A stretch of DNA of 50,115 nucleotides from a virus. This document shows, in pieces, positions 581 to 48,836 of the stretch. A model generated the notes under the pieces. The model saw only the letters and a program-made list of their open reading frames with translations. It was not told the DNA's origin and did no database searches. Numbering within the stretch: position 1 is the stretch's first letter; every line of letters begins with the position of its first letter. The DNA is taken from positions 1 through 50,115 of IMG/VR virus record IMGVR_UViG_3300020420_000914; one strand, 5' to 3'. Position numbers and translations under genes: made by a program.

Positions 581-2472
581 TATAAAGCACCGGCACCAAC
601 ATTTTTTCTTAATTTTCTTTGTTTCACTGTATCGTCATTAGATAATTTACGTTCTCTAAACATATTTTGTAAAGGAGTGTAAAGTTCACTTCTTGGTGCA
701 AATTGCCTTATTTCATTCATTACTAAATTTACTATATTTGCTTTATCTTTCATTTTTAGTAAATCATAAACAGATAGTTCTCTTCTAATTTTCTTTGCTT
801 GAAAAGAATTTATCTTAAATTGTTTTTCTAATTTTACTAATAATCGATTACATAAAGAATGATCAACTTCAGTAATTTCTATATAGTTTAAAAAATCTAA
901 CAGTGTAAATTTGTTCTTTGAAAGTCTATCTACAAATGCTTGACTTGAATTTTGATTGTTAAATTGAACAATACTTCCAGTACCAATTAGACTGTGTACT
1001 AGTAGATATAAATCTGTACCATTAGTTCTAAAGTAATCAAAATTATTATAACTCATAGTTCTTGAAGCATATTGTCTTGCAATTTTTTTATACTTAAATT
1101 CATTTTTTAGTGTTACTAATGCTAAACAGTAAGCATATATAAGTTCACCAATTTGTTCTGCTGTATGTTTTCCAATATCTTGTCTTGATCTAAATGCTCT
1201 ACTTTCAGTTAAGTCATTAACTAACTGAATATTTTCTTTAGCAAAATTTTTTCTTGAAAAATCTAATCTGTCAATTACTTTTACTGCTTTTCCAATATGA
1301 TCAACTGCAACAAATCCTTCTTGATCTCTTACTGTGTATGAATCTCCATTTTGATCAAAAGCATCAATGGCTTTAATATTTCTTAGTTTTTGATATAACT
1401 TATTTTTAATACCTATTAGCTTTAACCATAAACTATACCATGCTTCAATATTTTTTCTATTACTAAAATATGCTTTTTTAAAATTTTCTAAATTAACTAG
1501 TTTTCTTTGGCCAGCTGGTCCTTCTCTGCCTGTTTTTAGTTTTGCAATTTCATCTTCAATTCTTTGTTCATAATCATTTGCAAATCCATCAAAAAATCTT
1601 GCAGGGTCTTGTTCAATTGCACCAGCTCTTACCATCTTATTATGATTCATGTGAATCAGTTCTCTTAATTTTTTTCCAGTTATACCCATTGTATCAAACC
1701 AACTAAAAATATCTCCAGCTTGTTTTAGATAAGTGTTAGCATCATCTATTGAATTTTTAATTGCTTGATATTCTCCAGTTGTTAAGTTAACTATACCAGT
1801 AAAATCTTTTATGTAAGCATCATCATACCAAACACTATCTATTTTGTTTAATCCTGATAAATCAACATCAAAACTTGCGTTCATACTTTCTAATGAACTT
1901 CCTGAATAAGAAGTATGAAATACTACTCCAACTTCTGCTTGTTGTATCTTTTGTGCTAGTTCTGAATTTGAAGGCACTGCATAAGTTATTGTATTTGGTT
2001 TAAATGCAAGGTATGATTCACCGTTATGTTGAATTGTTTTTAAACTATTTTTAGTGAATAACAAATCGCCTTGTAAAACATTTTTAATACCTAACTGTGA
2101 TAGTCCGTTAAATGCTTTTTTAAGTTTTAATCTTAAATCAGCTTTGTCGCCATCTTCTTTTTGATCTTGGTGATTTGCATCAATATCTGATTCTGATTTA
2201 TTTAATTTTGCATTTTTATTAAAAACACTTTTTGTACCAACAAAAAATTTTCCATCACTAGGATCTATACCAGCAAATATAGCCGGTGAACCGTCCCATT
2301 TTATTGTTACATTATATTTTTTTGGACTAGATGTTTTAGCTAAATCAGATAAATTTCTTAAAAATGCAATGGCATTTTCAGCCCCTTGTTTTCCTTGGAA
2401 AAGAGCTAAATCTTCTAAATGGGTAAGATGTGTATTAACATCTTCTGATATAATAAGTTCATTAGCTTTCAT
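580..2472 (-). CDS. Large conserved phage protein with KxDG motif (DUF6267-like)
   Basis: This 630-residue protein resembles a large conserved family of T4-type marine phages that I associate with DUF6267. Residues 58-63 read KWDGSP, the pattern of the lysine-nucleotidylation motif I (KxDG) of covalent nucleotidyltransferases such as DNA/RNA ligases. A later QGDLLF (about 134-139) and FKPN (157-160) could be motif III and IV counterparts. The C-terminal half is basic, helical and unrecognised. The ATG at 2472 is preferred over an in-frame TTG at 2481 and overlaps the 3' end of the upstream 85-residue gene. Ligase-like chemistry is inference from motifs only. Confidence 0.75.
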   Translation of the reverse strand: MKANELIISEDVNTHLTHLEDLALFQGKQGAENAIAFLRNLSDLAKTSSPKKYNVTIKWDGSPAIFAGIDPSDGKFFVGTKSVFNKNAKLNKSESDIDANHQDQKEDGDKADLRLKLKKAFNGLSQLGIKNVLQGDLLFTKNSLKTIQHNGESYLAFKPNTITYAVPSNSELAQKIQQAEVGVVFHTSYSGSSLESMNASFDVDLSGLNKIDSVWYDDAYIKDFTGIVNLTTGEYQAIKNSIDDANTYLKQAGDIFSWFDTMGITGKKLRELIHMNHNKMVRAGAIEQDPARFFDGFANDYEQRIEDEIAKLKTGREGPAGQRKLVNLENFKKAYFSNRKNIEAWYSLWLKLIGIKNKLYQKLRNIKAIDAFDQNGDSYTVRDQEGFVAVDHIGKAVKVIDRLDFSRKNFAKENIQLVNDLTESRAFRSRQDIGKHTAEQIGELIYAYCLALVTLKNEFKYKKIARQYASRTMSYNNFDYFRTNGTDLYLLVHSLIGTGSIVQFNNQNSSQAFVDRLSKNKFTLLDFLNYIEITEVDHSLCNRLLVKLEKQFKINSFQAKKIRRELSVYDLLKMKDKANIVNLVMNEIRQFAPRSELYTPLQNMFRERKLSNDDTVKQRKLRKNVGAGAL

Positions 2473-2719
2473 CTGAATCAATTATCTTTTTGATGCCTCG
2501 TTCAAATTTTCTTGGATCTTGTGATCTAATGCTATTATGCAATCTTTTTACCAAGTCATCAGCAACCGGCTCATCATATGATTCATATATTAACTTTGTC
2601 AAATTTATTGCTGAACTGATAACATGATTAGCACGAGCTTCAAGCAGATTGTTAGTATCTGCTTTTGGCACTACTCTACTAATCTCATCTAATATTGAAC
2701 GTGTTTGTTTCTTCATCAT
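2462..2719 (-). CDS. Conserved small phage protein, 85 aa
   Basis: This small protein starts with KKQTRSILDEI and contains HVISSAINLTKLI and RSQDPRKFERGIKKI, which resemble a short family found next to the KxDG protein in marine T4-like phages. Function is unknown. It is predicted helical and basic at the C-terminus. It starts at one of two adjacent ATGs (2719 or 2716). A late-promoter box AATAAATA ends exactly 5 nt before the first ATG, so it is probably the first cistron of the operon running to position 6. The two genes overlap by about 11 nt and probably act together. Confidence 0.75.
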   Translation of the reverse strand: MMKKQTRSILDEISRVVPKADTNNLLEARANHVISSAINLTKLIYESYDEPVADDLVKRLHNSIRSQDPRKFERGIKKIIDSDES

Positions 2720-16603: not shown

Positions 16604-18520
16604 TTAAAAGTTCTTTTTGAATGTAATCATCCAATTTCTACCAGGTTGTGAATATCCATCTGGACTTTCATAACTTTCGTCAAATATGTTTTTTACACTC
16701 AAACTTATTGTATTACTATCATCTATTTTATACGTAGAATGAAAATTTGTCAACGATACAGATGGTTTTTTTATTGTAGCATAAGTGGTACTATCTATAT
16801 CTTTATGACTTCCTACATAATCCAATTCAATGATATTAGTATATTGACCTTGTGTGTGTTCTAGCCCGGTGCTGTTTATCCACTTTGGTCTTCTTGTCAG
16901 CTCAATACCATCACTGTCTTCTGCTATTGTAAATGTTGTAGCTGAATAAGTTTTTAAATTAGTAGTAAGCTGTCTTGCCATATTTAATTCTACACCATGT
17001 CTGTTTGACTTTGCAGTATCATTCACGTATGTACTTGATTGATACTTCATTGCATTGTCAAGATCTGTTGTAAAATAAACAATATCAAGACTTGTTAAAC
17101 TGTCATTGTATGACAATCCAATATCTGTTGTTGTTGCTTCTTCTGGTTTTAAATTTGGATTACCTGAGTAACCATAATTGTCAGATCCATAAAGTTCATA
17201 CAGTGTTGGTGTTTTGACTGCTGTAGAATTGTTTATTTTAAATTGTAATCCTTCTACTATAGTATATGCTGAACCAATTCTATATGTGTTGTAAGTTGAA
17301 AAATCTTTTGAATTATCATGTCTTACACCACCTGACACTATTAGTCTGTCAGATACCTGTACGTTACTGTTAACAAAGTAACCAGTTGAATGAGAACTTT
17401 TATCTACTTCAGATGAGTAATACTGACCATTGTTGTCAAACTTACCACTGTAGTCTTCATGTTCTATACCTGGTGTAATGTCAAAGTTATCAAACATAAA
17501 AGTATTTGTTCCAATGTATGTTGTACTTTCTGAATCATAGGTATCTATTTCAGTTCCGTTAGTATATGTTCTATCATATTTGTTTTTTGATATGACAAAT
17601 TTACTGTGTCCAAGATCGTTTTTAATTTTTACATCTGATTGAAAAATAGAAAATTTGTTGTTAGCTGTATAATCTAAATCATCTCCTGATCCTGAATCTA
17701 ATTCTGAATCATTTTCTTTAGTTGAATACATTATTCCAAATTCATTCAAACCGTTTTGACCAAAGCCAGTTCTTGAATTAATAGTAAAATTTTTAGCTTC
17801 AAATCCGTCATTCTCAGTTCCTTTTGCTGATGCTGATATTCCATCGCTTTCAGCACCGTCAACTGTTAAATTTACAAACGTATTTTGATCTACAAAATAT
17901 TTTCCTACATTCAAAGTTACTTTTTTAGTGCCAAAAGATCCTGCAGATACAATTATAGAATTTTCAGGTATTGGGTCAGTTTTAAAATTTATAACTCCAC
18001 CTACTGCATTAGGACCATAAAGTGTTCCATGTGATCCTTTAATAACTTCTACTGATGTTGCATGATTTAAAAAATCATTTGATATGTCATGTAATCCACC
18101 AGTTGTACTGTGATCTTTTATAGGTACACCATTAATCATAACCAAGACATGATTTGAATTTGTACCTCTCATAAAGACAGAAGTTTGTTGTCCAGTAGGA
18201 CCTGATTGTACTACATTCAGACCTGAAACTCTTTTAATTGCTTCAACTGTATCTACTGTATTTGTTTTTTGAATTGTTTTGACATCAATTACATCTGCTG
18301 TGATTGTTTTTTCTGCACGTGAACTTGGATCACGTAATACTGGAACGTATATTGTAATAACTAGAGCTCCATCTTCAGATACTCCTACATCAGGTATTTT
18401 AGATTCATCTGCGGCAGGTATGTCTGTAACAATGTCGTGTTTTGTATTTTCATTAGCATGTACTGTTGAAAACAGTAATAAAGTTGCTAATAAAATAACT
18501 TTCGATAGTTTAGTGGCCAT
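16604..18520 (-). CDS. btuB: BtuB-like TonB-dependent outer-membrane receptor
   Basis: This 638-residue protein has a signal peptide (residues 1-22, ending STVHA), a TonB-box-like segment ALVITIYV (52-59) and a plug domain with VFMRGTNSNHVLVMINGVP and EVIKGSHGTLYGPNAVGG. A 22-strand-type beta barrel ends in Phe (WMITFKKNF), the usual BAM signal. The plug sequence is closest to vitamin B12 receptors, which import cobalamin with TonB energy. It overlaps the upstream DUF6580 gene by 34 nt under a cobalamin riboswitch, which strongly supports B12 as substrate. Such receptors are bacterial; presence on a phage genome indicates transfer from a host. Confidence 0.93.
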   Translation of the reverse strand: MATKLSKVILLATLLLFSTVHANENTKHDIVTDIPAADESKIPDVGVSEDGALVITIYVPVLRDPSSRAEKTITADVIDVKTIQKTNTVDTVEAIKRVSGLNVVQSGPTGQQTSVFMRGTNSNHVLVMINGVPIKDHSTTGGLHDISNDFLNHATSVEVIKGSHGTLYGPNAVGGVINFKTDPIPENSIIVSAGSFGTKKVTLNVGKYFVDQNTFVNLTVDGAESDGISASAKGTENDGFEAKNFTINSRTGFGQNGLNEFGIMYSTKENDSELDSGSGDDLDYTANNKFSIFQSDVKIKNDLGHSKFVISKNKYDRTYTNGTEIDTYDSESTTYIGTNTFMFDNFDITPGIEHEDYSGKFDNNGQYYSSEVDKSSHSTGYFVNSNVQVSDRLIVSGGVRHDNSKDFSTYNTYRIGSAYTIVEGLQFKINNSTAVKTPTLYELYGSDNYGYSGNPNLKPEEATTTDIGLSYNDSLTSLDIVYFTTDLDNAMKYQSSTYVNDTAKSNRHGVELNMARQLTTNLKTYSATTFTIAEDSDGIELTRRPKWINSTGLEHTQGQYTNIIELDYVGSHKDIDSTTYATIKKPSVSLTNFHSTYKIDDSNTISLSVKNIFDESYESPDGYSQPGRNWMITFKKNF

Positions 18521-18996
18521 TTTTCCTTTACCTCGTATAATGTTTTAATTATTGTGCCGTAAAATAATGTTGATAAAACAGTATTTGTAAAGAAAGGAAT
18601 TGCCATGATGTAACAAGTGATTAAACCTGTTAGAGTATAGCCATAGTATCCACTTGTCCATACTCCAAAATTTGTTACTATAAAAAATAACAAACTTGAT
18701 AACAGAGACATTATCCATACGTTTACAAACTTAAACTGCTTCATAAACACATAACTCGATAGTGTAACTGCGATAAAAGAAGTATATACCCAAAACATAT
18801 AAGAATGAAATCCTATAAAGATATCAGATACAAACATTGCTAATAAAGGTATTACAACAGCCATATACCTGTCTGATGTTAGCATTGGCATAGTAACAGC
18901 CATAGCTAATATCGGCGTGAAATTAGGAGGATGAGGAATCAACCTACTAATTGCAAGTACAATAACCGTATATACAATTATTCCAAAAGTTTTCAT
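18487..18996 (-). CDS. DUF6580 membrane protein, putative B12-linked transporter component
   Basis: This 169-residue integral membrane protein has about five hydrophobic segments. The segments SRLIPHPPNFTPILAMAV, PLLAMFVSDIFIGFH, SLLFFIVTNFGVW and YIMAIPFFTNTVLSTLFYG match the DUF6580 family as I know it. These proteins look like the substrate-binding (S) components of small-molecule transporters and often accompany cobalamin riboswitches and btuB. The start codon follows immediately after a hairpin that encloses its ribosome site. Its job, moving B12 or a precursor across the inner membrane, is inference from family and riboswitch context. Confidence 0.85.
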   Translation of the reverse strand: MKTFGIIVYTVIVLAISRLIPHPPNFTPILAMAVTMPMLTSDRYMAVVIPLLAMFVSDIFIGFHSYMFWVYTSFIAVTLSSYVFMKQFKFVNVWIMSLLSSLLFFIVTNFGVWTSGYYGYTLTGLITCYIMAIPFFTNTVLSTLFYGTIIKTLYEVKEKWPLNYRKLFY

Positions 18997-19189: not shown

Positions 19190-21589
19190 TTAGTTAGATG
19201 TCAAGCCTGCTAAATGTTTAATTCTGTCAAGCTCTTCTGTTGTATCTTCTTGCTTTTGATCTTCCATTTCATCAGCAATCTTGTTTAACCAAGTTGGCTC
19301 TGAAGGATGTCTGTCGCCATCTGATACATCTGCATATCCAATTCCATCAGCTTCCTTACGTAGCATTGCAATTATTTCTTCTTTTGATTTACCTGCATAC
19401 ATGCTCTTAGGATCTTTAATGTCGCTCATTACTGCATCTTTGTAGTCTTCGTATTCATGCATGTCAGCAAATCTTTCTGAATCTAAATCTGCCTGTGTCA
19501 TTGGATTTTCATCTAATAATTTTTGAGCCGCTTGTTTGTCCATTTTAACTGGATATGATTTACCATTAAATGTAAAATTCTTTTCGCCTTTGACTGCCGC
19601 TTGTGCCGCCGCAGTATTAAAAGCATTATCCTCTTCAACCTTACTTTCCATCATACCTAAGTCATCAAGTCTATTCATGATCCATTCTACTGGATCTCCA
19701 TCTCTAGCTTTTGCTGTGCCATATGGCATTTCGCCTGAGTCTAAATAGTAACTGTATAACTCCATGTACAATTCTGAACCACTATCTAAATCACCCATCT
19801 GTTTCATTTTAGCAACGTCTTGTGGATGTTTAGCCATAATAGCCATTACTTCGTCTTTTTCCATAGCTTCATTTACTGATTCTTGGTTGTGTTTAGGATC
19901 CATTTGTTGTAATAATTCTTCTTGATGTTTTGCTAGTTCTTCTTTGGTATCAAAAGGACCACCTGTTTGTACACCATCTTTAAATGCATAAAATTTACCA
20001 CCTTGGTGTTTTGCTGAAAGTCCGTATTTGTTCATTCCCATATCAGATTCTTGCATACCTAACATTCTTGCCGCCGCATTTAAATATGATGTCCATAATT
20101 TATGATCGCCTGTATCTTTACCGTCTTTGTTCATCATTTCAACAGCTTTGTTGTTAATTTTTTTACGTTGTTCTGGTGTATATTTTTGCATCATTTCGCC
20201 TGCTGTCATATCTTCAGATACAGTATTTGATTGTGCAACAATTGGCTCATCTGTGAATACACCAAGCATTCTGTTAAACGATTCAGTTAACTGATCAACT
20301 TCGTATATTGAATCACCACCTTTAATTTGTTTTGGCTCTTCAGCTGGCTTAGGAGATCTATCTAAATCTTTAATATTTTTTAATACGTCTTTTAAAACTG
20401 ATACATCATCTACTGTCATTTTCTCTTTATCTTCACCTGTAATTTTATCAGACATTCTAGATAAAAATACTGCTACTTCATCATCTTTTGCTCTTGCCGC
20501 CATGTCACTTAATTTGTAAGCCATCATGTTTTCTTTACTTGAAAACTGTTTAATGTTGTCTGGACTGTATTCTTTTTGAGAATCAGTTCTTGGTGATAAT
20601 TCAAAAGGACCTTTTGAAATATTTTGTGCAACTCGTTGTCTTAGTTGTGCTGTATCATTCATTTCTTCTTCATGGATTTGATGTATCATTGGTAGTAACT
20701 CCTGTATTCTTGAATCAATATTTGATACAGTGAATTTTTCTTTCATTTTATCCAGTGAATCCTGAGATACTTCAGATACTGCATTTGCAGTAAAATTATC
20801 TACGTATTCATTGTACCCTGTTGACGTTGTTAAACGTTTCATTGTCTCTCTTAATTTCTCTTGTTTTGCTAACAAAGAATTGTATATTGCTGATGCTTGT
20901 TCTAGCATATTTGGAGAACGTCTAACAATGTTAGCTACTTCACGTATTTTGCTTAATTGTTCACTAATGTTAACAATGCTTTGTCCAACTTCATCATATG
21001 GATTACCACCTGACTGTACATGACGTGTCATTGCTCTTGCACCGTTTAAATGAATAAAAGGATATTTAAATCTTTCACCATCTGAGTTTTCAATATATAA
21101 TGCTTTGATATTTCTTGATCTTGAACCAGGCACTTCTTCATTCACAGGCTTTCTGTGTTTGATAAGAAGCTTGGCTCCTTCTAAATTCTGTGAGCTGGTT
21201 TTTGTTGTTCCAGCTAATGATGTATAACTTTCTGTTGTAATGTCTTTCATAGTATTTGTATTTAACCTAAATGTGTAATTTTTGGGCTTTATTTCTCTAC
21301 CAAATTCTCTTAAATCAAAGTCTAAAAGATTATCTCTTGCTAGATTTTTCACTGATTTTATTGATTTATCAATACTTTCAACAGATTCTGGTCCTTTGTG
21401 CATCTTAATTTCTCCATTTTGTTGATCAACATTTACCATAATATTGGGAGATTTTACATAAAAAAACCTTGCTCTTGCTGGATCAGATATTTCCATGCCT
21501 TCATTACTGTCAAACATCTGTACAGAATACCCGTGCCCTTTGAGTACTTTGAACAATTTTTCAGAAACTGTGTTATAATCTACTGCCAT
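19190..21589 (-). CDS. Large conserved phage protein, probable head/virion component
   Basis: This 799-residue, highly charged protein is without a recognised enzymatic domain. It resembles a large hypothetical protein of marine T4-like phages. It has long predicted helical stretches (residues about 200-360) and acidic low-complexity regions in the middle. The C-terminus ELDRIKHLAGLTSN resembles the gp22 scaffold C-terminus here (VNIKRLAGLRS), which suggests a shared interaction during prohead assembly. A late-promoter box lies 5 nt before its ATG. A virion or assembly role is inferred from these two points. Confidence 0.65.
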   Translation of the reverse strand: MAVDYNTVSEKLFKVLKGHGYSVQMFDSNEGMEISDPARARFFYVKSPNIMVNVDQQNGEIKMHKGPESVESIDKSIKSVKNLARDNLLDFDLREFGREIKPKNYTFRLNTNTMKDITTESYTSLAGTTKTSSQNLEGAKLLIKHRKPVNEEVPGSRSRNIKALYIENSDGERFKYPFIHLNGARAMTRHVQSGGNPYDEVGQSIVNISEQLSKIREVANIVRRSPNMLEQASAIYNSLLAKQEKLRETMKRLTTSTGYNEYVDNFTANAVSEVSQDSLDKMKEKFTVSNIDSRIQELLPMIHQIHEEEMNDTAQLRQRVAQNISKGPFELSPRTDSQKEYSPDNIKQFSSKENMMAYKLSDMAARAKDDEVAVFLSRMSDKITGEDKEKMTVDDVSVLKDVLKNIKDLDRSPKPAEEPKQIKGGDSIYEVDQLTESFNRMLGVFTDEPIVAQSNTVSEDMTAGEMMQKYTPEQRKKINNKAVEMMNKDGKDTGDHKLWTSYLNAAARMLGMQESDMGMNKYGLSAKHQGGKFYAFKDGVQTGGPFDTKEELAKHQEELLQQMDPKHNQESVNEAMEKDEVMAIMAKHPQDVAKMKQMGDLDSGSELYMELYSYYLDSGEMPYGTAKARDGDPVEWIMNRLDDLGMMESKVEEDNAFNTAAAQAAVKGEKNFTFNGKSYPVKMDKQAAQKLLDENPMTQADLDSERFADMHEYEDYKDAVMSDIKDPKSMYAGKSKEEIIAMLRKEADGIGYADVSDGDRHPSEPTWLNKIADEMEDQKQEDTTEELDRIKHLAGLTSN

Positions 21590-21603: not shown

Positions 21604-23211
21604 TTATATTATAAATGGTAATGGTTGTGTTGTACCGTCATCATCATCCTCAAGTGCATCGCCAAGACTCTTTTCAAATATAGGATCATATTTTGTCAAA
21701 TAATCAACTATTCTAGCACATAAAAGAGTAGCTGATACAAGATCATCATTTTCACCAAGTTTTGCTGAAAAACTATTACCTCTAGCAACAAACACTTTTA
21801 GTTCTCTGATTAAGTTTCTACTATTAAGAGAAATTTTATCTGATTCAATCCAATGTTTTATTTTTGAACAAGCTGATATTTTTGCTTTGTGTGTTGTATT
21901 ATAACCTTTTCTTTTATGTTTGTCTCTTCTTTGTTGACCTGCACGTCTTGGTTCGTGTAAGAAAAATCCAGGAAATCTTGCTTCGTCCATTTCTTCAACA
22001 GCCACAATGGCCGCTTCTCCTAGTGTATTGTTTTCAATTGTCCAATATATCTCTGGAGCTGGTTGTCCTTGTTCTTTTAATTCAAGATCTATTTCTTTTA
22101 AAATTGAATATAATGTTCTAACTTGTCCTTGTACTGATGTTTTATTGTGTTGCCACTCAGCAACTTGTTTTAAATCTGGTACACTATAAACTTCAATTGC
22201 TGAATAATCTCCACCTGTACCTAGACTAGGATCTAAAGCACAAACATAAGTATTTCCTTTTTTAATCTTTTCATACCATCTTACTTGACCAGTTTTTCTT
22301 AACGGATCTTTTCCAGATAACGTAATTAATTTTAATCCATCAATTAATGTTTCATCAAATGCAATAAATTCACATTCATGTTCTCTTTTAAATCTTTCTT
22401 CGCCTATCCTTGCTTGTTCATCTTTGGCCCACTTATCATCTCTGTCTGGATGTTCACTCCAATGTACTCCTATTGCTTTGAATCCATTTATGCCAGTGCC
22501 ATCTCTTGTAGGTTGACCAAACTCGTCAACTCTTTTATTTGCGCCTCTCCATAAGCCTGCAAAAACGTCATCATCATTATTTGGTGTTGAAGTAATAATA
22601 CATTTACCACCTGTTGACAATGTAGGTGACAAGGAAGTCCAAAATTCATTAGCTTTATTTTGTGGTTCAACAAATGCAAACTCATCCATGTATACAAGAG
22701 ATATAGACATACCTCTACCTGTTGTCTCTGTTGTTGTTTGTGCTATAATTCTTGATCCGTTGTCAAAATCCATTGATCCTTTATTATATGACGTTACTCC
22801 ACATCTAATATGATCTGGTGTTTCTTCGTATGCAAATCTCACACGTTGCATAATATCTTGTGCACCTTGATATTTGTGTGCCGCAATCAATATCAAAACA
22901 TCTGGGTGAAACATTGCATACCATAACAAGTACCCTGCCGCACAGGTTGTTTTACCTGTTTGTCTTGCACACATGGCAATAGCAAATCTATTATCATTAT
23001 AAGTTTCTAAAAGTCTTTCTTGAAACGGATATGGATTGAATTTCATTCTACCTTTAGTAGGATGTTGAATCCACATAAAATTTTTCATAAAATACAAATA
23101 TCCAGATTTTTTGTCAGCTGATTGTTTTAGCTCAAGTAAATTATTTTCTGAATACTTTGACTTTGAGTAGGCTTTTTTAGTTAAATTTCCATCAAGGCTT
23201 TTTCGTTGCAT
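21604..23211 (-). CDS. 17: Terminase large subunit (T4 gp17)
   Basis: gp17 is the ATP-driven DNA-packaging motor and headful nuclease. In this 535-residue protein (T4: 610) the Walker A motif ARQTGKTT is at 82-89, Walker B plus catalytic Glu is LVYMDEFAF (172-180), and ITSTPN follows as the coupling motif. The RNase H-like nuclease begins with CALDPSLGTGGDYSAIEV around residue 330. The C-terminal stretch ends with an acidic DALEDDDDG. A late-promoter box lies 5 nt before its ATG with no Shine-Dalgarno site. Confidence 0.96.
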   Translation of the reverse strand: MQRKSLDGNLTKKAYSKSKYSENNLLELKQSADKKSGYLYFMKNFMWIQHPTKGRMKFNPYPFQERLLETYNDNRFAIAMCARQTGKTTCAAGYLLWYAMFHPDVLILIAAHKYQGAQDIMQRVRFAYEETPDHIRCGVTSYNKGSMDFDNGSRIIAQTTTETTGRGMSISLVYMDEFAFVEPQNKANEFWTSLSPTLSTGGKCIITSTPNNDDDVFAGLWRGANKRVDEFGQPTRDGTGINGFKAIGVHWSEHPDRDDKWAKDEQARIGEERFKREHECEFIAFDETLIDGLKLITLSGKDPLRKTGQVRWYEKIKKGNTYVCALDPSLGTGGDYSAIEVYSVPDLKQVAEWQHNKTSVQGQVRTLYSILKEIDLELKEQGQPAPEIYWTIENNTLGEAAIVAVEEMDEARFPGFFLHEPRRAGQQRRDKHKRKGYNTTHKAKISACSKIKHWIESDKISLNSRNLIRELKVFVARGNSFSAKLGENDDLVSATLLCARIVDYLTKYDPIFEKSLGDALEDDDDGTTQPLPFII

Positions 23212-23704: not shown

Positions 23705-25027
23705 TTATTTTTGTATTAGAAAATTATATACTGGAAATGTATTAGCAAAATTTTTATTACGTCTGCGGTCAATTTCAGCTAAAAAATCTACTGCATCTTT
23801 TCTCATTTTTTCAGCTTCAGCTTTAGTCCATGTGTTTTCAAAGAAATAGTTTTTTAATCTTTCAACGTAATTAAATTCATTGATGTCTGTTAATTCATTC
23901 TGTTTAACAAATGCATCTAGTTCTTTAAATTTGTTTGTCCAATACTCATTTTTAGGTAGATTTAACACATTCAAAAACTTAGGGCTATGCAGTATGCTAA
24001 CCCCGTATGTAACCCCCTTATAAACGTGTTTTAAGCGGTATACATCCTTCATAAAGCTCAACATAGTGTCAATGCTTAACATATTAGCAGTCACCATTAT
24101 ATGCAAGGATATGCCGGATCTACGCACCATTTCACAGTGTGTTAGCCAATTATCATAATGCATTCCTTCTCTGATATACTCTGCCTGATCTCCAAATGCA
24201 TCGCAACTGGTATGTATCAATATATCTTTTACACAACCTTCTTTTTTCAACTTTTTTAAATGATTTAATGCTTTAATAATAGTTTCTGTTGCTACTGAAA
24301 GATTGGTATTGATTTCCAATGTGAGGTGTGGTTGTGGATCATGTTCTAGATCATCCAACAACTTGAAAGTGTTTTTATTCAGCAAAGGTTCTCCGCCGGT
24401 TATTCTCAAAGTTTTCAATTCAATTTTTAATTCAGGCCACCATTTCCACCATGCATCAACATAAGGATTTTCTTCACGATTAAGATAAGGTGTTCTATCT
24501 GTTTCAGCAATCCATTCAAGATTATTGTAGTTGTCTTGTGTTGGATAAGAACCATGATTTTTAACTTCGCTCCACCATTCACTGCTGAACACTGGTGAAC
24601 AGTAAACACATTTCATATTACAAACATTACCAAAGCTAACTTCAACCTGTGCCGGTTGTATGTTGTCTTGCCATTTAGATTTTGACACTTGATCAAAGTA
24701 AGGCATGGCCCAGGTACTGTTACTGCTTTTTTTAATTCTGTCGCTGTAATGTGAACCTTCTGTATCTTCTACACTCCAACAGTAATTACATTCTTTTGGT
24801 CTTTCTCCGTCAAGCATTTGCTTACGAATAAGTTTTTTATAGCTGGTGTTGTGTAATGCTGAAGGATTGTATTCTAATTCATCAATAGGTATTTTGTGTG
24901 TTTGCGGATGGTGACAACTGTGAGTGTGGCCATTCTGTAAATGAATTGTAACTTGTTGCCACTTTGCTAAACAGAAAGTAGGTGAGATCGTGTCTAACTT
25001 TTGTTTTGTTTCATCAAGTTTGCTCAT
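23705..25027 (-). CDS. Radical SAM protein with twitch/SPASM-like architecture
   Basis: This 440-residue protein has the radical SAM cluster motif Cys-x3-Cys-x2-Cys in NVCNMKCVYCSP, followed by RITGGEPLL, the SAM-binding GGE motif. Extra cysteines occur N-terminal to the core (FCLAKW, HSCHHP, ECNYCW), consistent with an auxiliary iron-sulfur cluster as in twitch/SPASM proteins. Such enzymes make a 5'-deoxyadenosyl radical and often modify peptides. Similar proteins occur in marine phages with unknown targets. It lies between the frameshifted gene pair and the terminase block, so modification of a virion protein is one possibility, not shown. Confidence 0.88.
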   Translation of the reverse strand: MSKLDETKQKLDTISPTFCLAKWQQVTIHLQNGHTHSCHHPQTHKIPIDELEYNPSALHNTSYKKLIRKQMLDGERPKECNYCWSVEDTEGSHYSDRIKKSSNSTWAMPYFDQVSKSKWQDNIQPAQVEVSFGNVCNMKCVYCSPVFSSEWWSEVKNHGSYPTQDNYNNLEWIAETDRTPYLNREENPYVDAWWKWWPELKIELKTLRITGGEPLLNKNTFKLLDDLEHDPQPHLTLEINTNLSVATETIIKALNHLKKLKKEGCVKDILIHTSCDAFGDQAEYIREGMHYDNWLTHCEMVRRSGISLHIMVTANMLSIDTMLSFMKDVYRLKHVYKGVTYGVSILHSPKFLNVLNLPKNEYWTNKFKELDAFVKQNELTDINEFNYVERLKNYFFENTWTKAEAEKMRKDAVDFLAEIDRRRNKNFANTFPVYNFLIQK

Positions 25028-25038
25028 GTAAACTCTTT

Positions 25039-25599
25039 TTAATTAAAAGGCTTACTTAAAATATCATCTGTGTTACCAGGATTATCAACAGCACTTCTAA
25101 AGTCGCCAAATGCTTTACCAGGATTTTTTACGTAGTCAAGACCTTTTTGAATTGTTTTGTTTGTTTTTACAAATTTCTTTAATGACAATTTGTCTTTGTT
25201 AATAATAGCAGTCATACCTTTTGCGTATGCTTGAAACTTTTTTAATTCGTCCGGAGATGAAATTTCATCTACTCCAAAGAAAGGATCGCCGTAGCTACTA
25301 GTATTGATTGCTTGATTGATGTCTGCTATGTTGTTTGAGTTTGAAATCTTAGCAAGATCTCTTAACATATTATTTGTGTTACCTGCTATACCAATTCCTT
25401 TTTCACCGTTGGATGATCTTCCCATATGAAAAGTGTTTTTTATCACTGTTCTAAATACAGGATCTTTTAAAATCTGTGCAGGAGGTAAACCTACTTCACC
25501 TTGAATGCCTTGTAAAGTGCTTAGGTGTTTATTTGTAAGCTGAGTTAATAAAGCTGTTTCGGCTCTACCAATACTTTTATTCTCAACTACTTTTCGGTC
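25039..25599 (-). CDS. C-terminal part reached by probable -1 frameshift from the 152-aa gene
   Basis: This frame is open from the A9G slippery run to 25039 (186 residues) but has no convincing start. A TGA at 25615-25617 closes it just before the slippery site, and the only internal candidate, GTG at 25446, has no ribosome site. The region before that GTG reads as sensible protein (SIGRAETALLTQLTNKHLS, GEVGLPPAQILKDPVF). A -1 slip on A AAA AAG joins residue 149 of the upstream gene to this part, giving about 335 residues. The C-terminus (PFFGVDEISSPDELKKFQ, NPGKAFGDFRSAVDNPG) is unrecognised. A homopolymer sequencing error or a real mutation are alternatives. Confidence 0.65.
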   Translation of the reverse strand, partial: DRKVVENKSIGRAETALLTQLTNKHLSTLQGIQGEVGLPPAQILKDPVFRTVIKNTFHMGRSSNGEKGIGIAGNTNNMLRDLAKISNSNNIADINQAINTSSYGDPFFGVDEISSPDELKKFQAYAKGMTAIINKDKLSLKKFVKTNKTIQKGLDYVKNPGKAFGDFRSAVDNPGNTDDILSKPFN

Positions 25600-26045
25600 T
25601 TTTTTTTTGAGTGCTCAGATTCGGCAACAAAATTTCTATACTCGCTCATCAACTCTTTAAAGACAGATTCATCTACCTCTTTATCATTGTTGACTAGTGC
25701 ATTGTCACCGTGCTTTGCTGGAACGTACTTAAACTTTTTTTGTTTCTTAACTGATGTTGTAAAATCATCTTGCTTGTAAGTATTTGGTCCAGTGTGCACC
25801 ATTACGCTTTCTTCTTTCATATCAATTTCCACGTTTAAATCATCATCTTGAAATGCTTTTTGCATTTCTGGTAATGTTGCTGTAGTTTCTACTGTAGCTT
25901 CAGCTCTGTTAAATTCATTAACATCAACTACTGCATCAACAATACCTGATTGTCTTAATGCATATTCTAACGAAGACTGAATTGATCTATCTTCGTCTAA
26001 ATCAAAATCTCCTTCATCAACTCTTATTACGTAGGTATGCTTCAT
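25587..26045 (-). CDS. Hypothetical protein, 152 aa, carries a frameshift site near its end
   Basis: I do not recognise this protein. It is acidic in its first 100 residues, with two possible alpha/beta repeats (YVIRVDEGDFDLDEDR and LNVEIDMKEESVMV), then a Lys-rich tail ending KKKTEK. Its ATG overlaps the TGA of the upstream gene (ATGA). Codons 146-149 lie in an A9G run (25599-25608), and a -1 slip there would extend the protein by 186 residues. The short form stops at TAG 25587. Both forms may be made, as with structural or assembly proteins of other phages. Confidence 0.7.
   Translation of the reverse strand: MKHTYVIRVDEGDFDLDEDRSIQSSLEYALRQSGIVDAVVDVNEFNRAEATVETTATLPEMQKAFQDDDLNVEIDMKEESVMVHTGPNTYKQDDFTTSVKKQKKFKYVPAKHGDNALVNNDKEVDESVFKELMSEYRNFVAESEHSKKKTEK
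25599..25608 (-). promoter_or_regulatory. Slippery A9G run, candidate -1 ribosomal frameshift site
   Basis: On the minus strand the codons read TCA AAA AAA AAG ACC, which contains the canonical A AAA AAG heptamer in the correct phase. After a -1 slip the next codons are GAC CGA AAA GTA, entering an open frame of 186 residues. No strong downstream hairpin is obvious. Confidence 0.6.
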
Positions 26046-26689
26046 TTTAAAGGCTTCCTATTTTCTTGTGATAATGGTGATTTAGCTTTTGGATCATCTT
26101 CTTTAGGTTGACTTTCATCTTTAGCATCAGTTGTTGCTTTTTGACTTAACGGTCCTTCAACTTCAACTTTGCCTCTGTCTGGATCATTTTCTCTAAAGTT
26201 TTTTAAATCTTTTAAGAAGTTGTCTTTGTGTTCTTCGCCACTTACTGGTTTGTCAGTTTCAGATACTTTCTTTTCTTCATCAGTATAATCTTGACCCATT
26301 TTTGGTTCGTAATTTTCAGAATCTGCTGTTTGTCTTTTTACCTCTGCCTCTTGCTCTTGTTCAATAGGATCATTAGGTCCTTTAACAACTATTGTCTCAT
26401 AAGCTATTGCTAACTTATCTGATAAATTTCTTCTAAATGTTTCATGTGATATTGGCATGTTAATAATGGCATCAATAATATATACTTCTGCATTCTTAAC
26501 TTTAGTACCAAAATCTAATGGATGTTCTTGCATGATTGTTTTAACTGGCTTATTGATTGATACAATATCGTACCTTTCAAGCTCTCGCTCAATGATATTC
26601 ATCATATCATCTGTAACATCACATGCAATTTTAATCCTAACTGGATTTTCTTGTACAGCTTCTGCTAGATATTCTTTAAAAGTTTTCAT
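26042..26689 (-). CDS. Candidate internal (injected) protein with capsid-targeting peptide
   Basis: The N-terminus MKTFKEYLAEA closely matches the T4 internal-protein capsid-targeting peptide MKTYQEFIAEA, which sends IPI-IPIII into the prohead and is cut after Glu10 by gp21. Here the cut would follow LAE, the same motif as the predicted gp23 cleavage site (YLAE-A). The 205-residue mature protein has an alpha/beta N-terminal half (residues 15-100) and a disordered, Lys/Glu-rich C-terminal half containing two GPLSQ/SPLSQ repeats. It has a late-promoter box 5 nt upstream. In T4 such proteins enter the host with DNA and can block restriction enzymes; this role is inferred. Confidence 0.65.
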   Translation of the reverse strand: MKTFKEYLAEAVQENPVRIKIACDVTDDMMNIIERELERYDIVSINKPVKTIMQEHPLDFGTKVKNAEVYIIDAIINMPISHETFRRNLSDKLAIAYETIVVKGPNDPIEQEQEAEVKRQTADSENYEPKMGQDYTDEEKKVSETDKPVSGEEHKDNFLKDLKNFRENDPDRGKVEVEGPLSQKATTDAKDESQPKEDDPKAKSPLSQENRKPLK

Positions 26690-26693
26690 ACTA

Positions 26694-27305
26694 TTATTTA
26701 TCTTCCTTATTGTTTTTATCGTTTTCTTCCACTTTTTGTATTATTTGATCCAATAATTTATTGCGATCTCCTACAATATAACCTTCACCTTCAATGAAAT
26801 CATCAGTAGATCCACCAGCTTTTTGCTCCCATTGATCAACTCTTTGCTTTTTAAGTTGTAGTTCAATCATACGCAATTTTTTGTCTGCTTTGGCGTTTTT
26901 GGCTTCTATGGCGTTTTTCATCATGGTTTGAGCAACTTCAAACATTTTACCAGCATGTCTTGATTCAGAATTCATGCCTAAGTCCATAAGCTCTTTATAA
27001 CTTTTCATAGCTTCTGTGGCATAACCATCCATATCATTATCATGCCCTTCTAAGTCTTTTACTAGTGGCAATGCTTTATCAATTTTTTCAGCTGTAGTAA
27101 GAGCTTTTTTTATAACTTGTTGCTCATTTTCTTGTAATTCAGAATGTGCGGCCGCGGTTGAATGATCTAAATCATCTATAGATGACTTGTAATTTGATGT
27201 GTCATGCCCTAGATCATTTATCTGTGCATCATCATTATTTTCTTGTTTTTTTAATTCATCTTCCATATTTGGTAAGTCAAATGTTTCTTCTAATTTTTTA
27301 TTCAT
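26694..27305 (-). CDS. 16: Terminase small subunit (T4 gp16)
   Basis: gp16 recognises DNA and stimulates the gp17 motor. This 203-residue protein (T4: 164) has an acidic disordered N-terminus and C-terminus around a helical core. The core segment SYKELMDLGMNSESRHAGKMFEVAQTMMKNAIEAKNAKADKK resembles the T4-type pattern of two helices with R-H-x-x-x-x-FEV (positions about 107-150). It lies between gp4 and the internal protein gene, separated from gp17. The call rests on the central helical segment. Confidence 0.8.
   Translation of the reverse strand: MNKKLEETFDLPNMEDELKKQENNDDAQINDLGHDTSNYKSSIDDLDHSTAAAHSELQENEQQVIKKALTTAEKIDKALPLVKDLEGHDNDMDGYATEAMKSYKELMDLGMNSESRHAGKMFEVAQTMMKNAIEAKNAKADKKLRMIELQLKKQRVDQWEQKAGGSTDDFIEGEGYIVGDRNKLLDQIIQKVEENDKNNKEDK
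26695..26702 (-). promoter_or_regulatory. T4-type late promoter box, 5 nt from ATG of the internal protein gene
   Basis: GATAAATA on the minus strand lies inside the last codons of gp16 and ends 5 nt before the ATG at 26689 (spacer ATAGT). Confidence 0.6.
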
Positions 27306-27307
27306 AT

Positions 27308-27730
27308 TTACTTTATAACATAGATTGAGTCTTCATTCAAGACCCTAAATCTAATTCCTTTCCTCTTTGCCCATTCACCAGCCGCCAACCATTTTGACCT
27401 GTTAATTAAGTAGTTAGCTTTATCTTGCTGACTTTTTATACTTTCTAAAGTTGTTTGTTTTTTAGGTTTTATTTCAATCAGCTCGGCAATTTTTTTGCCT
27501 TTCTTATTAATATATATCATTAAAAAATCTGGAACGTACATTGATTGCTTTCCAGTAAATGGATGTTTATATGGAATTCTTACAGGCTCACTTGACCATT
27601 GTATTATTGATGGATGTGAATCGCACATTCTCATAAACGTTAATTCCCAACTTGATCTAAAACGTGGTGATCTTGAACCCACATATTTTTGGTCATTTTT
27701 GACCTGATATATTCCTTGATGAAATTTCAT
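27308..27730 (-). CDS. 4: Head completion protein (T4 gp4)
   Basis: This 140-residue protein (T4 gp4: 150) is required to finish DNA-filled heads. It starts MKFHQGIYQVKN and contains YVGSRSPRFRSSWELTFMRMCD and YVPDFLMIY...IAELIEIKPKKQ. The PDF ... E-x-KPKK arrangement resembles a PD-(D/E)xK nuclease core. Late-promoter box TTAAATA is 8 nt upstream of the ATG. The next gene downstream, gp16, starts 2 nt after its stop. Confidence 0.9.
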   Translation of the reverse strand: MKFHQGIYQVKNDQKYVGSRSPRFRSSWELTFMRMCDSHPSIIQWSSEPVRIPYKHPFTGKQSMYVPDFLMIYINKKGKKIAELIEIKPKKQTTLESIKSQQDKANYLINRSKWLAAGEWAKRKGIRFRVLNEDSIYVIK

Positions 27731-42271: not shown

Positions 42272-43444
42272 TTACACAAATGATAAGTTAGAAACCGCAA
42301 TTTTTGACATGTAGTCTGCCGCATTACCAAGAGATGATGCTGTGTTGTTTAACTCAACATAACCATATCTTGTCATGAAACTTACTACTGGTTCAAAAGT
42401 TGACGGATCAATCACAACACCTGAGCTCATTAGTGGAATGTATGGGCAATAGAAAGCCGCCGCATCTACTTCACCTGGGCCTTTGTAACCTACAAGTACG
42501 TTAGCTGAATCAGAAGCATATGAGTTTACATATACTCTCATTGAGCCGTTTAATGTACCTACAAATTTAGTATTTGTTGGCGCATCAAATGTACCTTCAG
42601 TTGTTCTTGCGAACGCTGATGTTGTCGCTGATTGAAGAATAGTAAGAGCTGTTGGGGACATAACTGCCCAGTTACCTGCACCTCTTCTTGTTCTTTGTGC
42701 AATCAAGTTAGCTTCTCTGTTGATCAACACGGCTAATACTGCATGTTTGTCACCGATATACGTATGTGTACCAGTTACACTTGACATGTCAAAGTCTGTT
42801 GCCGCCGCTGTCGCTAGTGAATTTAGTGAACCTATAATTTCTTGATCGATTTCAGCAGTGATTTCTTGTGCTAGAGCCGCCATAATTTCAGCTTCTACAT
42901 CTAGGCCATGCATTGCATTGGCATCTTGAGCTGACTCAAAAGTCCATCTTGCAGATAGCTTTCTTGTCTTAGCTTCAACTGTTTGTTTTAACACTTGAAT
43001 TGATAGTCTGTTACCAGCTACACCTTCTAGTGTTGAAGTTGATGCCGCTTTGTCGTTAGCATCTCCTGAATAACCTTCAGCAATTTTGAATGGTGAAAGT
43101 GCTTCATCACCTGCTGTAGTATCAGTACCTGATGTTGAATTGAATGAGTCAGCGTATCTAACTCTTAATGTGTGAATTTGTCCAACTGGACCAGTCATTG
43201 GTTGTACACCAACGATCTCGTTAGCTATAACTGTAGGCATCACACGTCTGATTACTGGAAGGATAACCTTGTTTAAAGCCGCTACATTGCCGGCGCCTGT
43301 TGCACCTGCTGTTGCCGCCTCGGCCAAATATGTCTGAGTGTTTTCTAACACTGCTGACATAGTTTCTTTCTTTTGACCTTCAAGTCCTTCTAGCAGAGCA
43401 GATTTTGTATTTTCCCAGTTCTCTGTAATAGTTTTGTCTGTCAT
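42272..43444 (-). CDS. 23: Major capsid protein (T4 gp23)
   Basis: gp23 builds the head shell. This 390-residue precursor has a helical N-terminal propeptide ending TYLAE-AATAGATGAG, so gp21 cleavage after Glu42 is expected. The mature part starts with NVAALNKVILPVIRRVMPTVIANEIVGVQPMTGPVG (residues about 50-85), then ARWTFESAQDANAMHG and RRGAGNWAVMSPTAL, all diagnostic for marine T4-like gp23. AAGGAG lies before the ATG, 2 nt after the gp22 stop. A strong terminator follows it. Confidence 0.97.
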   Translation of the reverse strand: MTDKTITENWENTKSALLEGLEGQKKETMSAVLENTQTYLAEAATAGATGAGNVAALNKVILPVIRRVMPTVIANEIVGVQPMTGPVGQIHTLRVRYADSFNSTSGTDTTAGDEALSPFKIAEGYSGDANDKAASTSTLEGVAGNRLSIQVLKQTVEAKTRKLSARWTFESAQDANAMHGLDVEAEIMAALAQEITAEIDQEIIGSLNSLATAAATDFDMSSVTGTHTYIGDKHAVLAVLINREANLIAQRTRRGAGNWAVMSPTALTILQSATTSAFARTTEGTFDAPTNTKFVGTLNGSMRVYVNSYASDSANVLVGYKGPGEVDAAAFYCPYIPLMSSGVVIDPSTFEPVVSFMTRYGYVELNNTASSLGNAADYMSKIAVSNLSFV

Positions 43445-43446
43445 GT

Positions 43447-44532
43447 TTAACTCCTTAGACCTGCTAGTCGTTTAATATTAACGATATCATTATTTTCGTC
43501 ATTGCTAATTGCTTCAGCTCTATCACCAGTGTGCTCTGTGATTACTACAGTGTCTGATTTCTCAGATGTTGTAGTTTCATTTAACACTGCTGGTAGATAC
43601 TTTTCAAACTGCTTTTTTAAATTACCAGTTTGTACTGACTCAAGTAACTCTGACATTACTTGACGCTTATCTTTCGACAATGGTGAAACAAGTTCGTTAA
43701 GAGTTTTTTCTCTAACAATCTTATCTTCTGCTATTTTAAGCTTCGTTGCCATTGTTTCTATTTCAGCATCTTTCTCAGCTAGGCTACCTTCCATTTTATT
43801 GGTTTTTTCCTGCTGATCAGTAAGTTGAGTATTCAACTTACGAATTTCCCCACCTTCGTTGAGGTAAGAACTCATGTATTCACCTGCAAACGCCTCAAAT
43901 ACTTTTCTACCAAAGTTGTTCTCTTTTGCAACTTTAATATCTTCTTTTAATGTATTGAGCTCGTTTTTAAGTGTTGAAGTAACTGCGTTCTCTACAAGAC
44001 CTGCCGCTCTCTTGATGAAAGCTGATTTAGAATCTTCAATAATTTTCTTACCTTCTGATACTAATTGTACTTTCTTTTCAACGAGATCTTTTTTGTCTTG
44101 TTCAAATTCAGTTAACTCTTTGGAGAGTTGTCTGACTACAAACTCTTCTAAGTTTGTAAATTGACCTTTGAGTGCGTCTCTGTCGCCATGTAACTCTTGT
44201 ACTTCTTGTACTAGAATATCATTAACGAATTTAGTCAACATACCTGAATGTTCGTTCATCTTCTTCTTGTATTCTACTCTTTCTGCAACAAGTTTTTGCT
44301 TGTCTTCTGCAAATTCACTAACTTCTTTTTTCAAAGTGTCAGTAATCATGCCATCCATAGCTTCTACAATTTGAGATTTGTCATTTTCATAACGTTGTGC
44401 GAACTCTTCACGTAGTTCTGCAGAGATTTCCTCACGAGCCTCAGACAGCTTTTTCTCCCACGCTTCCTGAACTTGAGTTTTTACTTCTTCAGAAAGTGCT
44501 TCGGATCCAAAAATTTCTGTAATGTTTGCCAT
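43447..44532 (-). CDS. 22: Prohead scaffold protein (T4 gp22)
   Basis: This 361-residue protein is almost wholly helical and very rich in Glu, Lys and Gln with long coiled-coil stretches (about residues 15-280), as expected for the main core scaffold that is later degraded by gp21. It lies between gp21 and gp23, the usual order. The C-terminus ends VNIKRLAGLRS, matching the end of the large protein at 19190. The gene has a GGAG ribosome site. Confidence 0.92.
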   Translation of the reverse strand: MANITEIFGSEALSEEVKTQVQEAWEKKLSEAREEISAELREEFAQRYENDKSQIVEAMDGMITDTLKKEVSEFAEDKQKLVAERVEYKKKMNEHSGMLTKFVNDILVQEVQELHGDRDALKGQFTNLEEFVVRQLSKELTEFEQDKKDLVEKKVQLVSEGKKIIEDSKSAFIKRAAGLVENAVTSTLKNELNTLKEDIKVAKENNFGRKVFEAFAGEYMSSYLNEGGEIRKLNTQLTDQQEKTNKMEGSLAEKDAEIETMATKLKIAEDKIVREKTLNELVSPLSKDKRQVMSELLESVQTGNLKKQFEKYLPAVLNETTTSEKSDTVVITEHTGDRAEAISNDENNDIVNIKRLAGLRS

Positions 44533-44542
44533 CTGAATCTCC

Positions 44543-45178
44543 TTATTTTAATCTTAGCTCTGTTATTATTTTCGTAATCTCGTTAGCAAAATGTTTTTCT
44601 GCTTTACGATCATACATCGCATCACGACTAAGACCTAATAGACCCATGCCGCCATGCATATTTAGTAAGCCTTCGTATATGGCTTTCGGATATGCATCAG
44701 GAGCCGAAGGCTGAGCAACAATATCAACAGTGACGATTTCAAAGTCTGCGACTTTACCATCATTGCTTACGTTACCTGCACCTCTTGAACTTACTCCTAA
44801 TTTACATCCTGAATCCAGCAAAGTTGAAACTATCTTTCCCATTGGTGTGGGCATAACTTTTAGTTTTCCGTAGCCATCTGGTCCATCCATCCACATAGAT
44901 TCAATCATATGAGAGACCCTATCAATGTTTATTTGTAAACCTTGAGGATGATCAGCTTCACCCATTACTGAGTAACCTGATTTTAGTCTTTCGTTAATTG
45001 TTCCTACTGCTTTTTGGATTTGATCGACCGGATATACACGTTTGTTTTCGTTGACTACTCCACCTTGAATAAAAACACCTTCCATATAATGGTGTTTATT
45101 CTCATCTTTGCCTTCATGTATAACTTTGATCTTTGCTTGATCGTAAGTTAAACTTTCTGTTAGTGGACGAAAACTCAT
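44543..45178 (-). CDS. 21: Prohead maturation protease (T4 gp21)
   Basis: gp21 is the serine protease that cleaves head proteins after (L/I)-x-E sites. In this 211-residue protein (T4: 212) the conserved GEADHP holds the catalytic His77 and LGVSSRGAG holds the nucleophilic Ser131 (or 130). VDIVAQPSAPDAYPKAI closes the core. It lies between the acidic core protein and gp22. Its predicted targets in this window are gp23 (LAE-A) and the internal-protein candidate (LAE-A). Confidence 0.95.
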   Translation of the reverse strand: MSFRPLTESLTYDQAKIKVIHEGKDENKHHYMEGVFIQGGVVNENKRVYPVDQIQKAVGTINERLKSGYSVMGEADHPQGLQINIDRVSHMIESMWMDGPDGYGKLKVMPTPMGKIVSTLLDSGCKLGVSSRGAGNVSNDGKVADFEIVTVDIVAQPSAPDAYPKAIYEGLLNMHGGMGLLGLSRDAMYDRKAEKHFANEITKIITELRLK

Positions 45179-48828: not shown

Positions 48829-48836
48829 TATTTATT
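48829..48836 (-). promoter_or_regulatory. 20: T4-type late promoter box, 5 nt from gp20 ATG
   Basis: AATAAATA on the minus strand ends 5 nt before the ATG at 48823 (spacer AAAAT); no ribosome binding site is possible between them. Confidence 0.6.

Follow-up and report, generated by a model that had tools for sequence, protein, structure and literature searches.

A predicted T4-type capsid-targeting sequence on a conserved gene between the terminase genes of uncultured marine phages

The head-packaging locus

IMG/VR record IMGVR_UViG_3300020420_000914 is a 50-kb linear fragment, and its whole length of 50,115 nucleotides (the window) was analysed. The gene under study, gene X, occupies positions 26042–26689 and is an ORF of 215 aa with an ATG start. 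An ORF at this place had been proposed in an earlier sequence-only reading and is present, on the minus strand. The sequence directly 5' of the start codon is AAGGAAGATAAATAATAGT-ATG and the protein begins with MKTFKEYLAEAVQENPVR. Its product is a homolog of virion proteins (PHROG 14802) with 129 distinct family members in IMG/VR, and its N-terminus carries a predicted capsid-targeting sequence (CTS).

All neighbouring genes named here lie on the minus strand. Directly upstream of gene X is a gp16-like gene, a putative small terminase (26694–27305), which matches PHROG 16202 (unknown function) and is assigned to gp16 from synteny, position and layout compared with T4 gp16. A gp4-like head completion/closure nuclease follows at 27308–27730 (PHROG 218, E 3.9e-39). 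On the other side, gene Y (25587–26045; 152 aa) overlaps the end of gene X and is recognised only in nearer relatives, and the gp17 large terminase lies at 21604–23211 (PHROG 36964, E 2.8e-127). A radical SAM protein is encoded between X/Y and gp17 (23705–25027; Pfam 6.7e-9) and has the same place in the nearest relatives. The gp21-like prohead protease (44543–45178) is assigned by its position between gp20 and gp22, and relatives encode homologs of it at their gp23 loci.

The order gp4, gp16-like gene, X, (others), gp17 was found in essentially every IMG/VR locus. Among 78 gp16-like neighbourhoods, 75 contained X, two ended too early and one was a true exception, giving 75 of 76 evaluable cases. 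In T4 (NC_000866), genes 16 and 17 are direct neighbours. Median identity was 37 % for X, compared with 53 % for gp4, 48 % for the gp16-like protein, 58 % for gp17 and 32 % for a 799-aa virion protein.

T4 late promoters have ATAAATA as their core, and a copy of this motif precedes the ATG of X by 5 nt (26695–26701, minus). The motif is rarer in the window than expected by chance (14 observed, 31 expected), and for six ORFs, namely X, gp17, gp20, the gene of the 799-aa virion protein and two more, a copy is separated from the start codon by exactly 5 nt. In 121 of 138 family members X has the motif no more than 40 nt upstream, most often at a spacing of 5 nt. Given this placement and recurrence, X looks like a late gene. 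The minus-strand copies located 5 nt before an ATG are at 48829, 26695, 23217, 21595, 8256 and 2725; with a start site positioned as in T4, late mRNAs from these motifs would be leaderless or nearly so.

Lineage of the phage

The portal protein is 47–53 % identical to its counterparts in PA5oct, Phosso, Atu_ph07 and GAP32-type phages, and these stand at the top of the match list. The closest cultured portal relatives are thus Rak2/PA5oct-type jumbo phages (PA5oct, Phosso, Atu_ph07), and nothing pointed to a SAR11 host, so that an earlier description of the phage as a pelagiphage is not upheld.

Two other observations concern the gene content of the window. A TonB-dependent outer-membrane receptor (16604–18520, minus; Plug and beta-barrel domains, Pfam 5e-21 and 4e-34) adjoins a multi-pass DUF6580 membrane protein (18487–18996, minus), a possible phage-carried nutrient-uptake pair in a T4-like phage. 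The products of gp22 (43447–44532) and of the gene for the 799-aa virion protein (19190–21589) have a common C-terminal motif, I-[KR]-x-L-[AS]-G-[LIM]. It occurred in 33 of 4,965 ORFs, all of the gp22 or 799-aa families, while two control patterns gave 0; it was present at the C-terminus of 13/13 distinct gp22 and 21/43 distinct 799-aa-family proteins, and is possibly a shared scaffold/cargo C-terminal signal.

The N-terminus and its predicted cleavage site

The first ten residues of X, MKTFKEYLAE (26660–26689, minus), form the predicted CTS. Over residues 1–11 the sequence MKTFKEYLAEA is identical at 7 of 11 positions to MKTYQEFIAEA of T4 IPII and IPIII (NC_000866), with conservative changes at the other four, and at 6 of 11 to IPI. 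The likeness that had been described as near identity is therefore real, and the wording was too strong. For T4 IPIII the first ten residues suffice for targeting, mutations place targeting mainly at residues 4 and 7 and processing at residues 8 and 10, and gp21 cuts after L/I-x-E (PMC9026906). In X all four positions are filled, by F4, Y7, L8 and E10, and across alignment A3 residue 4 was F in 54 of 56 sequences and Y in one, while residue 7 was Y or F in all 56.

The gp21 pattern L/I-x-E is found at residues 8–10 as L8-A9-E10, followed by A11, and cleavage is predicted between Glu10 and Ala11 (codons 10/11, 26657–26662, minus). The gp23 of the same phage has the predicted site YLAE|A (Glu42|Ala43; 43316–43321, minus), as the sequence-only reading had stated. 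In genomes with both proteins readable, the residue after L-x-E is A, Q, T, S or N in gp23 and A or S in the X products of the marine relatives. As the gp23 sites of the same genomes carry these residues, the P1' residues of X look tolerated by the phages' own protease, and the E|S and E|A sites of X seem compatible with it.

Controls and conservation within the family

IMG/VR was searched with a degenerate DNA pattern for the CTS N-terminus, with the same codons in permuted order as a control. At least 120 IMG/VR stretches matched the CTS pattern and the permuted pattern had 0 matches; the resemblance in gene X is beyond chance.

L-x-E was present at residues 8–10 in 128 of 129 distinct IMG/VR family members. 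Residues 1–11 are the best conserved block of the family (3.28 bits per column, compared with 2.06 for residues 12–17 and 2.16 for the folded domain), and 7 of the 12 invariant columns in a 13-member alignment fall within them, at the positions that T4 needs. Two checks for retrieval bias were applied. Fifteen family members with an N-terminus outside the retrieval pattern retained L-x-E. In an independent sample, retrieved by way of the gp16-like gene and with X detected by a profile built without the CTS, the core motif was present in 68 of 69 distinct X proteins, compared with 8 of 937 background windows, and the P1' residue was small, A or S.

A scan for further CTS-like starts, which had been suggested from the sequence alone, found only X in the window. 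With the strict pattern there was one occurrence per contig, at X, in 15/15 relatives' contigs. A looser pattern was applied to the window and to five long contigs (about 560 kb); X was the only match in four long relatives and in the window. In the fifth long contig (G001) X was not listed by the looser scan, probably due to a preceding in-frame ATG, and was the sole CTS-like ORF by the strict pattern. The proposal of a T4-type CTS and gp21-type site in X is supported by family-wide conservation and by the same L-x-E in the gp23s of the same phages, and the reading as CTS with predicted cleavage is well supported at the sequence level.

Structure and relatives of the body

An AlphaFold2 model built on a 56-sequence alignment (mean pLDDT 70.5, pTM 0.47) has an N-terminal helix at residues 4–10, a ferredoxin-like beta-alpha-beta-beta-alpha-beta domain whose fold spans about residues 15–103 and which is annotated as about residues 12–110 (26360–26656, minus; block pLDDT about 71–91) and a charged, low-confidence C-terminal part at residues 111–215 (26045–26359, minus; block pLDDT 49–69). 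Matches in the PDB were to common ferredoxin-like folds only, with Z below 8; HPPK, ribosomal S6, ACT and CutA1 were among them and are not read as indicating function. No relative was found when the family profile was searched against PDB sequences. Pfam gave no catalytic family above cut-off; a GDSL lipase match (E 1.2e-4) was rejected, since its 22.9 bits fall below the cut-off of 27 and X contains no GDS motif. Mature X is acidic, with a pI of 4.83, and the family has pI values of 4.4–7.8 (median 5.2).

Gene X matched PHROG 14802, 'virion structural protein', with E 5.8e-10 over residues 1–161, and the same group was matched by 54 of 56 family representatives. The cultured relatives are all jumbo phages: the PA5oct group, Phosso, Atu_ph07, GAP32, CBB, BF, PBECO4, PHA46 and Vibrio 2.275.O. 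The earlier remark that the body is unlike any known internal protein does not point to a new effector, as the protein falls into PHROG 14802 and has syntenic virion structural orthologs in jumbo phages. The jumbo proteins (including PA5oct gp282, GAP32_204, CBB gp210, PBECO4 gp016 and phage 121Q 557) are homologous to X over residues 1–161 at 20–28 % identity, and their loci resemble that of X, with tail tube, gp4 head closure, gp16-like gene and X in most of the phages inspected; extra genes intervene in Phosso and Atu_ph07. Among the orthologs inspected, PA5oct gp282 has a record that flags ESI-MS/MS detection in virions. The phAPEC6 protein gp270c (virion table of PMC7247149) was considered as an ortholog by gene count and dropped, its mass being 16.2 kDa and that of PBECO4 X 20.65 kDa.

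Unlike X, the jumbo orthologs have an N-terminal helix without the T4-like CTS consensus and usually without a cleavable L-x-E|small site, and the CTS-like DNA pattern had no match in nine jumbo genomes. The helix has no usable site in PA5oct (MKSFRDYYDAS), Phosso (MKNFYEYLSS) and PHA46 (MNKLQTILTS), while LTE|S is kept in Atu_ph07 and Vibrio 2.275.O. Because the PA5oct protein is in the virion although its helix has no usable site, cleavage is not universal in the family. The helix in orthologs without a site could serve another role.

Comparison with T4 internal proteins

T4 internal proteins (IPs) and Alt have such propeptides and are ejected (PMC9026906), and the IPs are poorly conserved among relatives. 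IPII and IPIII, which are CTS-bearing, gp21-cleaved and ejected, share with X all functional positions of the CTS, but the mature bodies are unrelated or of unproven relation. The T4 IPs are basic (pI 8.9–9.5; 9.3–9.5 for IPII and IPIII) and encoded outside the head cluster, whereas X is acidic and encoded inside the head-packaging cluster. Of the traits of IPI–III, X has neither the basic mature protein nor the accessory, poorly conserved character.

The T-even IP7 (PHROG 2667, internal head protein) has a CTS followed by a similar first strand and helix in the same register as in X. PHROG 2667 was matched by 18 of 56 family members and a BFVD match to Ip7 had E 3.5e-3. With the CTS removed, the match between mature X and mature IP7 was weak (hhalign, P 0.006–0.016). 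IP7 is about 100 aa and was found only in enterobacterial T-even-type phages, whereas X is 215 aa. Homology of X to IP7 is at most possible; the likeness comes mostly from the CTS and is not significant without it.

The CTS on other bodies in IMG/VR

Among the matches listed, the CTS N-terminus was also found on 77 other bodies, which form 35 clusters without detectable mutual similarity. The expectation that the CTS would serve as a general probe for capsid cargo is supported by this diversity, which includes an Acb1-type protein; with its permuted-codon control, the CTS N-terminus is a clean probe for putative capsid cargo in environmental phages. The putative cargo included T-even internal proteins, a nucleotidyltransferase-like FGRFNPPT-GH family, proteins with a DPBB lytic-transglycosylase domain or with DUF6267, and one Acb1. 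By eye, possible ADP-ribosyltransferase-like and HAD-like proteins were also seen, with no Pfam match above cut-off. These 77 bodies had a median pI of 9.5, with 67 of 77 above 8.

The largest CTS-bearing family among the matches listed comprised 22 members (L086, L041, L053, L067 and others) with FGRFNPPTVGH behind the CTS, as in NMNAT-type enzymes. Pfam gave no match for the member L086. This family is a candidate for an injected enzyme of nucleotide/NAD metabolism.

An Acb1-type anti-CBASS protein with the full CTS MKTFREYLAEA is encoded at 2104–2574 (plus) of locus L069 (IMG/VR contig 3300050162_000268; PF23474, E 2.8e-23). It differs in this from the Acb1-like 57B protein of T2, which has no CTS. 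This was the sole CTS-tagged Acb1 among the matches listed, and one other relative was retrieved, aligning from residue 14 only. The sequence suggests that in L069 an anti-CBASS enzyme is pre-loaded in the capsid. Downstream of this gene (L069:3718–6197), seven or more short paralogs (about 80 aa, ..LKPGDYVRI..LSPEEVMEVKLSR) are encoded in tandem.

The window itself encodes a DUF6267 protein without a CTS (580–2481, minus), and homologs elsewhere (e.g. L026:4752) have one; gain or loss of the CTS is therefore visible on the same body. A literature search of incomplete coverage, which does not prove absence, found no paper that connects the CTS with cargo of environmental phages or cyanophages.

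Possible roles of gene X

X is probably a core, CTS-targeted and gp21-cleaved protein of the capsid interior with a role in assembly or packaging. Reading X as a head part is supported by its fixed place in the head-packaging cluster, its near-universal presence, acidity and predicted late promoter, and the detection of an ortholog in virions. Three findings count against this reading. X diverges faster than gp4, the gp16-like protein and gp17, yet the 799-aa virion protein is equally divergent; T4 uses the CTS and lacks a gene at this place; and several distant jumbo orthologs have no usable cleavage site.

From these comparisons we infer targeting, cleavage, an internal location, promoter activity and a role for X along the following lines. 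The phage would represent a marine lineage within the T4 superfamily that is uncultured and has Rak2/PA5oct-type jumbo phages as relatives, and X would be expressed late from its own T4-type promoter within the gp4/gp16/gp17 cluster. Its first ten residues would fold into a short amphipathic helix and, as the CTS, draw the protein into the prohead core, where activated gp21 would cut after Glu10, as it would cut gp23 after YLAE. Within the maturing head the cut would release an acidic, ferredoxin-like protein of 205 residues (23.5 kDa), with a role that is most likely structural or related to assembly or packaging and not directed at the host.

The sequence-only reading had favoured a host-injected effector, packaged via the CTS, cleaved, ejected with the DNA and acting for example against restriction or another defence. 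The ejection of T4 proteins with such propeptides, the enzyme-like cargo behind the same N-terminus in IMG/VR (including the anti-CBASS protein), a layout of CTS and possible ferredoxin-like fold as in IP7, with weakly matching mature parts, and faster evolution of X than of gp4 and gp17 are consistent with such a function. However, X is a core gene with a fixed syntenic place beside the gp16-like gene, unlike the poorly conserved IPs; it is acidic, while the IPs and other CTS cargo are mostly basic; it has no catalytic family match above cut-off; and it is the only CTS-like gene in each long contig examined. A host-directed effector, against restriction or defence for example, is accordingly unlikely, although injection is possible, also as a by-product of either reading.

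A narrower version of the assignment as a head part, in which X would stay near the portal and help the gp16/gp17 motor or head completion, is improbable. In essentially all marine loci X lies between the gp16-like gene and gp17, with gp4 close by, which points in this direction, and ferredoxin-like domains are common protein-interaction folds, but the argument is one of gene order, the protein has no detectable relation to any neck or portal protein, and the PDB profile search gave no match. It is equally doubtful that the helix is uncleaved and binds a neighbouring structural protein, its likeness to IPII/IPIII being amphipathic-helix convergence: the jumbo orthologs do retain an N-terminus that resembles a helix and has no consistent L-x-E site, but the invariant columns at T4-required positions, the same peptide on 35 unrelated body clusters among the matches listed, the empty permuted-codon control and the small P1' residue in the independent sample all argue against this reading.

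Implications

The CTS is usually discussed as a loader of variable injected proteins (IPI–III, Alt); here it is joined to a protein that is conserved and encoded in the head-packaging cluster. As a tentative extension of the reading of X as a head part, the T4 CTS may in this lineage have become fixed on one core gene, inserted between the terminase genes and absent from T4, its product being an obligatory capsid-interior protein that connects assembly of the core with packaging of the DNA; the mobile CTS cargo of T4 and its freshwater and marine relatives would be the variable counterpart. If this is true, the CTS would label both essential components of the head and disposable injected effectors. 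The pairing of CTS and X in hundreds of uncultured marine phage contigs gives a testable function to the anonymous virion family PHROG 14802.
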